A DNA stretch of 64,000 nt, taken from assembly GCF_040932485.1 (NCBI RefSeq), contig NZ_JBFRBH010000001.1:3088212-3152211 (forward strand), read 5' to 3'. Below, one piece after another: positions 32,945-52,282 of this stretch. The notes beneath the pieces were generated by a model. That model saw nothing but the letters and a program-made list of their open reading frames with translations. It ran no database searches and was not told where the DNA came from. This DNA comes from Gymnodinialimonas sp. 202GB13-11 (GTDB lineage Bacteria > Pseudomonadota > Alphaproteobacteria > Rhodobacterales > Rhodobacteraceae). The position numbers were made by a program, and so were the translations under genes. The first letter of the stretch is position 1. The number at the start of each line of letters is the position of its first letter.

Positions 32945-33020
32945 CGAAAAAAGACCCGGGCACGAAGCCCGGGCCAAGTCCAACAGGGAGAGATGATGCC
33001 GTAACCCGGGCATCTACGGG
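32945..33020 (-). ncRNA. Candidate 3'UTR-derived small RNA with terminator
   Basis: Directly after the response-regulator stop, the minus strand has a hairpin GATGCC/GGCATC (33009-33014 with 32995-33000), a single-stranded CU-rich linker with TCTCTCCC, then a strong terminator CCCGGGC-TTCGT-GCCCGGG followed by TCTTTTTT (32947-32973). The terminator is near certain; that the transcript end is kept as a separate small RNA is inference from its Hfq-RNA-like layout. Confidence 0.5.
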
Positions 33021-33034
33021 TACTGAACTACTGT

Positions 33035-33721
33035 TCACGCAACCAGACGATAGCCGCCCGATTCGGTCACAAGAAGGCGCGCATTGGACGGATCTGGTTC
33101 GATTTTCTGCCGCAGGCGGTAGATATGCGTCTCAAGCGTGTGGGTAGTGACACCGGCATTGTAGCCCCAGACTTCGTGCAGAAGAATGTCCCGGGCAACG
33201 ACGCCATCCTGTGCACGATACAGGAACTTGAGGATGTTTGTTTCCTTCTCCGTAAGGCGAATCTTACGCTCATCCTCGGTGATCAGCATCTTCATGGCGG
33301 GCTTGAAGGTGTACGGCCCAAGCTGGAAAACCGCGTCTTCCGATTGCTCATGCTGCCGCAATTGCGCCCGAATGCGGGCCAGAAGCACCGGAAAGCGGAA
33401 GGGCTTCGTGACATAATCGTTGGCGCCTGCATCCAGACCCAGAATCGTGTCGGCATCGCTATCATGGCCCGTCAGCATCAGGACCGGGCATTTCACACCT
33501 TGCTTGCGCATCAGGCGGCAAAGCTCGCGGCCATCCGTGTCGGGCAGACCCACATCGAGGATCACAAGGTCATAGATGCCTTCCTTGGCACGCTCCATTG
33601 CCTGAGACCCGTTGGCGGCCTCAAAGACATCGAAGTCTTCAGTCATCACCAATTGCTCACTCAGCGCTTCGCGCAGATCGTCATCATCATCGACGAGAAG
33701 GATTTTCTTGAGGTTTGCCAT
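33035..33721 (-). CDS. OmpR/PhoB-family response regulator (orphan)
   Basis: 228 residues: receiver domain (1-120) with acidic pocket Asp11-Asp13, phospho-acceptor Asp56 in LVILDVGLP, Thr84 and Lys106 in YVTKPF; then a winged-helix DNA-binding domain with LTEKETNILKFLYRA and THTLETHIYRLRQKIE. No histidine kinase is adjacent, so its signal is unknown. A GGGGA site precedes the ATG. It is divergent from ribA. The end is followed by a strong terminator. Confidence 0.93.
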   Translation of the reverse strand: MANLKKILLVDDDDDLREALSEQLVMTEDFDVFEAANGSQAMERAKEGIYDLVILDVGLPDTDGRELCRLMRKQGVKCPVLMLTGHDSDADTILGLDAGANDYVTKPFRFPVLLARIRAQLRQHEQSEDAVFQLGPYTFKPAMKMLITEDERKIRLTEKETNILKFLYRAQDGVVARDILLHEVWGYNAGVTTHTLETHIYRLRQKIEPDPSNARLLVTESGGYRLVA

Positions 33722-49298: not shown

Positions 49299-50061
49299 TG
49301 ACGACCTTGCCCTGCTGATCCAAGCCGCTGAAAGGGCGGGTGAGATTGCCGGGCAATTCTTCCAGCGTGATCCACAGATCTGGGACAAGGGCTCCGAGGG
49401 CCCCGTGACCGAGGCTGATCTGGCCATCGACACCATGCTGCGCGAAACGCTGCTTGGGGCGCGGCCCGACTATGGCTGGCTGTCGGAGGAAACCGAAGAC
49501 GACGCAGCGCGACTTTCCACTGATACTGTCTTTATCTGTGACCCGATCGACGGAACGCGGGCGTTTATCGAAGGCGGGCGCAGCTTTGCACACTCTCTAT
49601 CGGTGGTGCATCGCGGGCAGGTGACGGCGGGCGTCGTGTTTCTTCCGATGCGGGACAAGCTTTATGCTGCGGCAAAAGGCCAAGGCACCACGCTAAACGG
49701 GCAACCCGTTCGCGTGACCGGCGCCAAGGACCCGGCCCAATCCATATTTCTGACCACCAAGGCCAACCTTAAGCCCGAACATTGGCCGAATGGCATTCCT
49801 GCGGTGGAGCGCGCCTATCGGCCTTCTCTCGCCTATCGCATGTCATTGGTTGGGGAGGGTCGCTTCGACGGCATGATGACCTTCCGCCCGACATGGGAAT
49901 GGGACATCGCCGCTGGGGCGCTGATCATCGAAGAAGCCGGCGGCCGGGCCACGACAAGCCGAGGTGCGCCATTGGTGTTCAATGGGCAAAGCGCGCAGGT
50001 CGACGGGATATTGGCGGGGGCGCCAGACGTGCATCAGGCATTGGTCGCGCAGCGCGCTTAA
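49285..50061 (+). CDS. 3'(2'),5'-bisphosphate nucleotidase / inositol phosphatase family
   Basis: 258 residues of the lithium-sensitive Mg2+ phosphatase family. Metal and substrate motifs: GWLSEET, ICDPIDGTRAFIEGGRSFAH and FRPTWEWDIAAGALIIEEAGG. It is most like CysQ, which hydrolyses PAP from sulfate assimilation, but inositol monophosphatase cannot be excluded. TTG start at 49285, 7 nt after GAAGGA and inside the pmbA end. Its TAA overlaps the stop of the opposite 60-residue gene as TTAA. Confidence 0.88.
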   Translation: MQGPDDDLALLIQAAERAGEIAGQFFQRDPQIWDKGSEGPVTEADLAIDTMLRETLLGARPDYGWLSEETEDDAARLSTDTVFICDPIDGTRAFIEGGRSFAHSLSVVHRGQVTAGVVFLPMRDKLYAAAKGQGTTLNGQPVRVTGAKDPAQSIFLTTKANLKPEHWPNGIPAVERAYRPSLAYRMSLVGEGRFDGMMTFRPTWEWDIAAGALIIEEAGGRATTSRGAPLVFNGQSAQVDGILAGAPDVHQALVAQRA

Positions 50062-50240
50062 CGCCCCGAAATCTCGAAAATGATAACGTTCAACGGGCCG
50101 GTGGACATCATCTGCGCCGACGACAACGTGCCTTCGGCCTCAGGGGCAATGGCATAAGCGTCGGCGGGCAGGGAAAGCGTTGCAAGCACGGTGACAAACA
50201 GAAGCGAGGCCAGGAGAACAAGGGATATGCGAAGGGTCAT
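50058..50240 (-). CDS. Small exported or membrane protein (60 aa)
   Basis: A 60-residue frame starting MTLRISLVLLASLLFVTVLA, a textbook signal or anchor helix, then LSLPADAYAIAPEAEGTLSS and a short C-terminus PLNVIIFEISGR. No family is recognised. Support: signal-like start, an interlocked TTAA stop with the opposite gene as in two other convergent pairs, and a candidate small RNA just upstream. A longer frame to 50561 has no protein-like character. Confidence 0.5.
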   Translation of the reverse strand: MTLRISLVLLASLLFVTVLATLSLPADAYAIAPEAEGTLSSAQMMSTGPLNVIIFEISGR

Positions 50241-50365
50241 GGCAGCAATCTGTGGCTCAAAATGGGAGGGCGGCGAAATCTTCCGTTCGTCTACCGTGCT
50301 TACCCTTTGAACATACGCCTGCGCTTTGATTTGCACGAGTAAGGCTCTCCTTACCTCATTCAACA

Positions 50366-50490
50366 GAAGAAAAGCCCCCGGCGCGGAAGGGAGGACGCGC
50401 CAGGGGCCGGGGAGGGAGACGGACAAGTGTTTGGCGGAGCGGCCCCAGAGAGAGAGGGGAGAGGGACATGGGCCGCTCCGCAACGGCTGG
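50366..50490 (-). ncRNA. Candidate CU-rich regulatory small RNA
   Basis: On the minus strand: a perfect 12-bp stem GCGGAGCGGCCC/GGGCCGCTCCGC (50470-50481 with 50434-50445) with a 24-nt loop made almost only of C and T; a linker with CTCCCTCCCC; then a 12-base stem with one mismatch (50396-50407 with 50374-50385) whose loop is TCCTCCCTTC, followed by TTTTCTTC, a Rho-independent terminator. The repeated CCTCC-like unpaired segments resemble anti-Shine-Dalgarno RNAs of Alphaproteobacteria such as CcsR-type RNAs. No promoter is assigned. Confidence 0.62.
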
Positions 50491-50714
50491 TCAAAGGGAC
50501 AAGTGACCGGGCCAGATTGGGCAAAGAAGGGTTTCGTTCTCAAAAGTCTTTGTCGTTTCAATAGGGTTGATATGCCTTTTGTCGTCGCATCCTGCGAGGC
50601 AGGGAAACCCGACCCTCACAATGCCGTCAGCGGCCTGAAACAGGCCCTTTGCTTGACGCCCCGGCTGAGCCGCTTAAGGGTTCACGCGCAATCCAGAACG
50701 ACCGGAGACCTCCC
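50491..50714. other. Gap upstream of DUF4170 and of the candidate small RNA
   Basis: No gene seen. It should contain the promoter of the small RNA (minus strand) and of the DUF4170-waaA-lpxK operon (plus strand). A CGGCCTGAAACAGGCC hairpin near 50631-50646 and an AT-richer stretch at 50525-50580 are the only visible features. Confidence 0.35.
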
Positions 50715-50960
50715 ATGCCCCAACGCCTGCACCTTGTTTTCGGCGGTGAACTCGTCGATCCGCAACGCACCGAATTTGAAAACGTCGATGACATCCATAT
50801 CGTCGGTATGTTCAGCGACTATGACAGCGCCTATGACGCTTGGAAGTCGGAGGCGCAGCGCACCGTGGACAATGCCCATATGCGCTACTTTATCGCCCAT
50901 ATTCACCGTCTGCGGGATGAAGAGGCCGAAGCCTCCTCGACCGAAGAGCTGGGAAGCTAA
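50715..50960 (+). CDS. DUF4170 domain protein
   Basis: 81 residues, LHLVFGGELVDPQ at the start, then DIHIVGMFSDYDSAYDAWKS and AHMRYFIAHIHRL, a DUF4170 signature. GGAG sits 7 nt upstream of ATG 50715. It is followed after 8 bp by waaA. The family is often next to Kdo transferase genes in Rhodobacterales, suggesting a link to LPS core synthesis; function unproven. Confidence 0.87.
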   Translation: MPQRLHLVFGGELVDPQRTEFENVDDIHIVGMFSDYDSAYDAWKSEAQRTVDNAHMRYFIAHIHRLRDEEAEASSTEELGS

Positions 50961-50968
50961 AACGACCG

Positions 50969-52282
50969 ATGGCGCGCTCAATCTTCCTTGGCCTCTACCT
51001 TGCGTGGTCCGCCCGTGGGGGGCGCGCTTTCGCCGAGCGCAAGCTCCGCGAGCGTGTGGCCGAAGGGAAGGAGGACGCCGCGCGCCTCAATGAACGGCGC
51101 GGGATTGCCAGCCAACCGCGCCCCGATGGCCCGCTGATCTGGTTTCATGCCGCGTCGGTGGGGGAGTCTGTTGCGATACTCGAACTGGTCCGCCGGGTCC
51201 TTGAGGAACGCGATGATGCCCATGTCCTTGTGACCACGGGCACCGTGACATCCGCCGAGGTTATGGCCGACCGTCTGCCCGCGCGGGCGATCCATCACTA
51301 TGCCCCGCTTGATGCGAAAGCCTTTGTGACCGCATTCCTCGACCACTGGCGCCCCGATCTGGCGATTTGGACGGAGAGTGAGCTTTGGCCCACGTTGGTT
51401 GTGGAAACCGACGCCCGTGGCATTCCAATGCTGTTGCTCAACGCCCGCATGTCCAAGGCCAGCCATGACAAATGGCGCTTTGCGAAGGGCGTTGTGCGCA
51501 ATTTGCTTGAGCGGTTTCACATGGCGCTCGTGCAAGATGAATTGACCCAAAGCTATCTGCGCCGTCTTGGAATGCCATCGGACCGGATGAAGGTGCTTGG
51601 CACACTGAAGGAAGGGGCCGCCGCCCTGCCCTGCGACGAAGATGAGCGTGCGGAACTGGCCAAGGTCCTCGCGGGCCGCCCCGTCTGGCTGGCGGCCTCA
51701 ACCCATGACGGGGAAGAGAAGCTGGTTCTGAAGGCGCACCGCATGGCGATGCGGGCCTCCCCCCGTCTGCTCCTCATCCTGGTACCCCGCCACCCCGAAC
51801 GCGGCGATGAGGTGGCGACGCTGCTGCAAAGCGACGGCTGGCGCTTTACGCGGCGCGCGGCGGACGAAGGGCTATCGGACGACGCTCAGGTCTACCTGGC
51901 CGACACGATGGGCGAGATGGGCCTGTGGTATAGGCTCGCCCCGATCAGTTTCGTGGGTGGATCGCTGGTCGCGATTGGCGGGCATAACCCGTTCGAGCCT
52001 GCGGCCCTTGGCTCTGCCATTCTGCACGGCCCCTATGTGACGAACTTCGTCGACATCTACCAGCGGCTGTCGGAGGCCAACGCGGCGCGACTTGCTCCGT
52101 CCCCCGAAAAGCTCGCTGACCATGTGGTCACGCTGCTGAGCCCGGAAGAGGCGGCGGGTATGGCGGCGTCAGCCTGGGGTGTAATCTCCGACGGGGCGGA
52201 TGTGACGGACCGGGCGCTGGCACTGATCATGGATACGCTGGACGAGGCTGAGATGCGCACCCTGCGGGAAGGCGCGGCCTGA
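50969..52282 (+). CDS. waaA: 3-deoxy-D-manno-octulosonic acid transferase
   Basis: 437 residues. Transfers Kdo from CMP-Kdo to lipid IVA at the inner membrane. The catalytic block HAASVGE (residues 60-66, Glu66) is near the N-terminus; the donor-binding domain includes FVGGSLVAIGGHNPFEPAAL. The stop overlaps the lpxK start by 1 bp (TGATG). Confidence 0.95.
   Translation: MARSIFLGLYLAWSARGGRAFAERKLRERVAEGKEDAARLNERRGIASQPRPDGPLIWFHAASVGESVAILELVRRVLEERDDAHVLVTTGTVTSAEVMADRLPARAIHHYAPLDAKAFVTAFLDHWRPDLAIWTESELWPTLVVETDARGIPMLLLNARMSKASHDKWRFAKGVVRNLLERFHMALVQDELTQSYLRRLGMPSDRMKVLGTLKEGAAALPCDEDERAELAKVLAGRPVWLAASTHDGEEKLVLKAHRMAMRASPRLLLILVPRHPERGDEVATLLQSDGWRFTRRAADEGLSDDAQVYLADTMGEMGLWYRLAPISFVGGSLVAIGGHNPFEPAALGSAILHGPYVTNFVDIYQRLSEANAARLAPSPEKLADHVVTLLSPEEAAGMAASAWGVISDGADVTDRALALIMDTLDEAEMRTLREGAA

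Follow-up and report, generated by a model that had tools for sequence, protein, structure and literature searches.

On the minus strand of the window, by which the whole analysed stretch of 64,000 nucleotides is meant, positions 50481-50370 hold a two-hairpin RNA element which, judged by the conservation and covariation of its first hairpin, is a real structured RNA, conserved at genus level. We lean towards reading it as a new, genus-restricted small RNA derived from the 3'UTR of an mRNA, which would work like CcsR-type RNAs through pairing of its loop to purine-rich ribosome-binding sites; transcription, processing and target pairing of the RNA we infer. In nine relatives the element directly follows the coding sequence of a small protein, while in the genome under study (G000; other G numbers denote the genomes compared) this coding sequence has apparently been lost and the RNA retained.

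Structure and covariation of the RNA element

Hairpin 1 (50434..50481, minus strand) consists of a 12-bp stem, 50481-50470 paired with 50445-50434, and a 24-nt CU loop (50469-50446) with the motif UCUCCC. The perfect stem and the loop size proposed for this strand in the earlier note are borne out, in coordinates and in the arms forming a perfect 12-bp inverted repeat, and the loop, which had been called C/T-only-type, is indeed rich in pyrimidines (21/24, including an unbroken run of 20) but not purely C/T. An unpaired, CU-rich linker of 25 nt (50409..50433), with CTCCCTCCCC at 50418-50409, leads to the terminator hairpin (50370..50408), in which 13 pairs are formed within 50408-50373 and the loop UCCUCCCUUC lies at 50395-50386. 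As to the terminator, the hairpin with this loop stands, but the short U-run after it is weak, consisting of four T before it is interrupted. Similarly, of three proposed CCTCC-like segments, CCTCC stands literally in two, the linker and loop 2 segments, but not in loop 1, the shared motif there being UCUCCC.

Folding of the 125-nt stretch gives -57.4 kcal/mol (z -6.21), a stability reached by 0/200 shuffles. Perfect inverted repeats with arms of at least 12 and a loop of 3-40 occur twice in the window, the other one having a 6-nt loop, as compared with an average of 0.1 per shuffle when the window was dinucleotide-shuffled 20 times under the same criterion. Loop 1 is the sole pyrimidine run of at least 18 on either strand of the window, and across 20 shuffles two such runs were found in total.

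Comparison among relatives reveals compensatory changes in the stem of hairpin 1, the lack of which had been named in the earlier note as refuting the proposal. In an alignment of seven rows, 84/84 cells hold standard pairs and both sides have changed in four of the 12 pairs, with a covariation score of 0.452 vs 0.322 +/- 0.032 upon shuffling (0/500 reach it) and at most 0.190 in slid-partner controls. Extended by G001, G005 and G010 to ten rows, the alignment has standard pairs in 119 of 120 cells and changes on both sides in six of the 12 pairs; the 2-nt bulge in G001 and G005 was aligned by eye, and the placement by Infernal agrees for G001. The loop varies in length between 23 and 30 nt and has a pyrimidine content of 0.72-0.93, vs 0.52-0.56 in the flanks, and it carries UCUCCC in 10/10 and CUCUCC in 9/10 genomes. 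Shuffling the eight distinct loops 2000 times, with relatedness left out of account, never produced a hexamer present in every loop.

A terminator-like hairpin is present in all ten genomes, the UCCUCCC terminator loop being limited to the subclade of G000, G002, G004 and G006, and the terminator loops of the other genomes being C-rich or U-rich and of different sequence. As, in addition, loop 1 does not preserve CCUCC to the letter across the ten genomes, 'anti-SD' is to be taken as a loose label for these segments. The proposal of a small RNA whose unpaired segments are rich in C and U is nevertheless well supported by the conservation and covariation of hairpin 1. A minus-strand open frame of 167 codons across the RNA looks accidental, since the homologous segment is without a fully open frame in five of the nine relatives tested (L007, L010, L011, L014 and L015) and the loop length varies, and a coding reading was dropped.

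Distribution in the genus and the parent gene

The divergent region was read in the genomes of the genus with DUF4170 as the anchor, which is found in 12 of 13 and is absent from G007, a genome 83% complete. In the window, the DUF4170 gene (50715..50960, plus strand) is the divergent neighbour of the RNA and is followed by waaA (50969-52282, plus strand). At this syntenic locus, divergent from DUF4170-waaA, 10 of the 13 genomes have a match to the hairpin 1 covariance model. Seven of these ten sequences were used to build the model and the G010 sequence is identical to one of the seven. The model was built without G001 (E 0.0017) and G005 (E 0.086), whose matches, weak on a whole-genome scale, lie at the syntenic place. 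The 5' arm of hairpin 1 has been lost in G012 and the entire element in G003, which indicates that the element is dispensable.

Among 295 genomes of as many genera, searched with stricter filters by which weak relatives could be missed, the model gave a strong match in G000 and none in the 294 other genera. Weak matches in G276 (E 0.003) and G298 (E 0.009), on contigs that differ from the DUF4170 contigs, were taken as chance. A repeat-element reading was rejected, as there is one strong copy per genome and the second match in G000 has only E 0.03. Restriction of the RNA to the genus is the best reading of its distribution.

In the nine relatives (9/13 genus genomes), a coding sequence for a small secreted-type protein lies directly 5' of the hairpin, which its stop codon and the terminator enclose. 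This protein of 57-68 aa with LGSGR repeats is present in two copies in G006 and has no Pfam match over the cut-off. The coding sequence matches in these relatives at E <= 5e-25, and the best match of the protein in G000 has E 0.025 and lies at another place. Of the 295 genomes, 17 matched the small-protein profile with an E value of 0.01 or lower (best 2.3e-5); these matches are partial, lie mostly within longer frames and are taken as chance, signal-peptide-like similarities.

The place of the coding sequence is occupied in G000 by a leader (50482..50568, minus strand), from which the Shine-Dalgarno sequence (GGAGG) and the ATG are gone, with promoter block, hairpin and terminator kept. From the CATATC box to hairpin 1, this leader measures 87 nt, vs 229 nt in G004, 457 nt in G006 and 220 nt in G002. 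As G000 branches beside G004 (89/89) in a tree built from 1.6 kb of DUF4170-waaA and groups with G002 and G006 (99/100), that is, inside the clade with the coding gene, loss of the LGSGR coding sequence in G000 is the simpler reading. The promoter-like block (50569..50609, minus strand), with GGTTTCCCTGCCTCGC at the 5' end and, as a -10-like box, CATATC at 50574-50569, aligns upstream of the RNA or of its parent at 11 of the 12 genus loci and is missing in G003. As a promoter the block is putative; a scan with the sigma-70 consensus gave no minus-strand promoter and left the block unmatched.

After the coding sequence was lost, the stem of hairpin 1 still has 12/12 pairs in G000. Identity of hairpin 1 is 90% vs G004 and 92% vs G002, that of the leader 51-55% over the aligned part and that of the next 79 nt, between G000 and G002, 62%; vs G006, hairpin 1 has 69% and is no better conserved than its flanks (75-78%). 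Retention of the hairpin after gene loss suggests that the RNA has a function of its own, an argument that can only be suggestive in view of the comparison with G006 and of the short end branch of G000 (0.11 substitutions per site), due to which retention could partly be lag.

Several other elements surround the RNA. A 60-aa secreted-type ORF (50058..50240) downstream on the same strand has no Pfam match, and similar ORFs are visible beside the RNA locus in L008 and L012. Just 3' of the terminator and outside the RNA, the unstranded palindrome GTAAGGAGAGCCTTAC (50339..50354) looks like a candidate DNA operator for the next small gene; in the form GTAAGGNNNNCCTTAC it is present in 12/12 genus loci and at two places in the genome, with the other copy at C1:3540201-3540216 (control 0). 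Pairing of the loop with the palindrome, via GGAGAG, was rejected: four bases at its centre are not the same in G003, G005 and G008, so that conservation is limited to the palindrome arms. On the plus strand, right before the DUF4170 start codon, a short inverted repeat of the GGAG...CTCC type (50699-50714), conserved in the genus, could hide the DUF4170 ribosome-binding site.

Proposed mode of action and alternatives

In the ancestral state, the RNA would be the 3'UTR of the mRNA for the small secreted LGSGR-repeat protein, transcribed from the promoter of that gene and ending at the intrinsic terminator, with release probably by RNase E cleavage, as for SorX, CcsR and UdsC in Rhodobacter. 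In G000, with the coding sequence lost, the RNA would be made directly, as either a transcript of approximately 200 nt or an approximately 110-nt fragment from its 3' part. The stem would present the pyrimidine loop with its shared core UCUCCC, to which the four-genome subclade would add UCCUCCC in the terminator loop, and these segments would pair with GGGAGA/GGAGG of purine-rich ribosome-binding sites and thereby repress translation. Pairing with ribosome-binding sites appears the most economical mechanism, since a rigid stem exposes UCUCCC, which is complementary to GGGAGA. Small RNAs derived from 3'UTRs, including SorX and CcsR, are described for Rhodobacter, along with RNase E processing, in a part of PMC8625941, and a passage of PMC3927594 contains the proposal that loops bearing anti-SD CU motifs block ribosome sites.

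A target scan with the 12-letter wobble complement of loop 1 gave six places in the genome, one of them the antisense of the RNA itself, and three in the control. One of the five non-self matches, GGGGGGAGGGGG, lies 7 nt upstream of the ATG start codon of a 155-aa ORF, which we take to be UPF0262-like; against three control matches this is not significant. Pairing of the loop in cis with the Shine-Dalgarno sequence of the parent gene was rejected, as that sequence is gone in G000.

The alternative that survives best, unlikely as we consider it, is a solely cis-acting 3' end element, which would protect the LGSGR mRNA from 3' exonucleases and serve to terminate transcription, and which in G000 would be the remnant of a gene lost recently. 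The position directly after the coding sequence in nine relatives, the terminator-like hairpin in all ten genomes and the decay or loss of the element together with the gene in G012 and G003 are consistent with such an element, but a stabiliser leaves unexplained why UCUCCC is common to 10/10 loops and why the stem is perfect (12/12) in G000 after Shine-Dalgarno sequence, ATG and coding sequence are gone.

We give distinctly less credit to a protein-binding decoy, with the pyrimidine loop binding a small RNA-binding protein, such as one with DUF1127, in order to titrate or recruit it. A DUF1127 protein is encoded in this genome beside the CcsR-type cluster, and the variable position of the motif within the loop would be tolerable for a protein site; moreover, the DUF1127 protein CcaF1 of R. 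sphaeroides is reported, in a section of PMC10253847, to bind RNAs and to aid CcsR maturation. However, the UCUCCC-type motif differs from CUCCUCCC of CcsR-type loops.

Relation to CcsR/ar14 and other known small RNAs

Two identities had been offered in the earlier note, a member of the CcsR-type family or a new RNA. The second fits best, whereas membership in the CcsR/ar14 ('cuckoo') family is very improbable. CcsR/ar14 RNAs combine several hairpins with an intrinsic terminator, and the element has two adjoining CU-loop hairpins plus a terminator, located 3' of a small-protein gene in the relatives; furthermore, UCCUCCC of loop 2, read with the stem bases that close the loop, differs from the family motif by a single letter, and there is a sub-threshold ar14 match. 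At 15.7 bits this match is far under the gathering score of 58.8, and CcsR1 was unreported up to E 10. According to a passage of PMC3927594, each hairpin loop of the family carries CCUCCUCCC, which is absent from loops 1 and 2 in G000 and from loop 1 of all ten genomes. CcsR is placed downstream of, and co-transcribed with, a DUF1127 gene in a CIN1-type locus in a section of PMC10253847, but the RNA locus is without a DUF1127 gene, the neighbours being DUF4170, waaA and the 60-aa ORF, as well as the LGSGR protein in relatives.

In addition, an ar14-like cluster is found elsewhere in G000. An ar14 scan yielded sub-threshold matches in 13/13 genomes of the genus and matches over the cut-off in 0/13, the best one in G000 being a tandem pair at C1:909660-909875 (locus L119). 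The cluster (L119 1404-1895, minus strand) has a 73-aa DUF1127 gene, then successive CTCCTCCC copies that look to be set in hairpins, and lastly a terminator. With 53.3 bits for ar14 and 28 bits for CcsR1 it scores below both Rfam gathering scores; by its architecture it is, convincingly, the CcsR-type cluster of G000. An RpoHI/RpoHII stress promoter and stress induction are further traits of the CcsR/ar14 family. The RNA at 50481-50370 is, on these sequence grounds, not CcsR/ar14 and a separate RNA. A Rho-utilisation (rut) type C-rich site with the intrinsic terminator as backup is hardly credible: the unpaired stretches ahead of the terminator are C-rich and G-poor, but the C-rich parts are largely within strong hairpins, one with a covarying stem, and rut sites are as a rule unstructured.

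As a 3'UTR-derived small RNA with a CU loop, the new RNA would be ordinary in kind, with the twist that it has been kept without its gene in G000; judged by Rfam 15 and a limited literature search, it is undescribed so far. If transcribed, it represents a covariation-supported small RNA family outside Rfam 15 that is convergent with CcsR-type RNAs. The genus constitutes a natural experiment, with gene and RNA in nine relatives, the RNA alone in one genome and a decayed copy or neither in two, which lets one ask by what route an RNA from a 3'UTR gains independence from its gene. Tentatively, and with somewhat less than even confidence, an mRNA may, within a single genus, have evolved into a regulatory RNA that stands alone, through deletion of its coding sequence, with promoter, UCUCCC hairpin and terminator kept under selection; the 3'UTR and not the protein would then carry the retained function, in a family convergent with, and independent of, CcsR/ar14.

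Among known systems, SorX (RF02784) and UdsC of Rhodobacter resemble the new RNA in their origin from an mRNA 3'UTR that is ended by the terminator of the gene. SorX has no Rfam relation to the new RNA, of which, in addition, the parent coding sequence is lost in G000. A SorX small RNA (RF02784, 71.6 bits, above gathering) is also located in the window, at 32947-33022 on the minus strand, directly 3' of a response-regulator ORF (33035-33721), presumably OmpR-type, in the known 3'UTR arrangement. CcsR1-4 (RF02791) with ccaF1 and ar14 (RF02344), or 'cuckoo', RNAs have their motif in every loop and a DUF1127 parent, whereas the new RNA has neither, its parent encoding the LGSGR secreted-type protein, and is a single-copy, genus-restricted RNA with Rfam scores far under the cut-off. 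Shared with these alphaproteobacterial RNAs are the CU-rich loops on variable stems, the 3' terminator hairpin and, in the relatives analysed here, the location in the 3'UTR of a small-protein gene.
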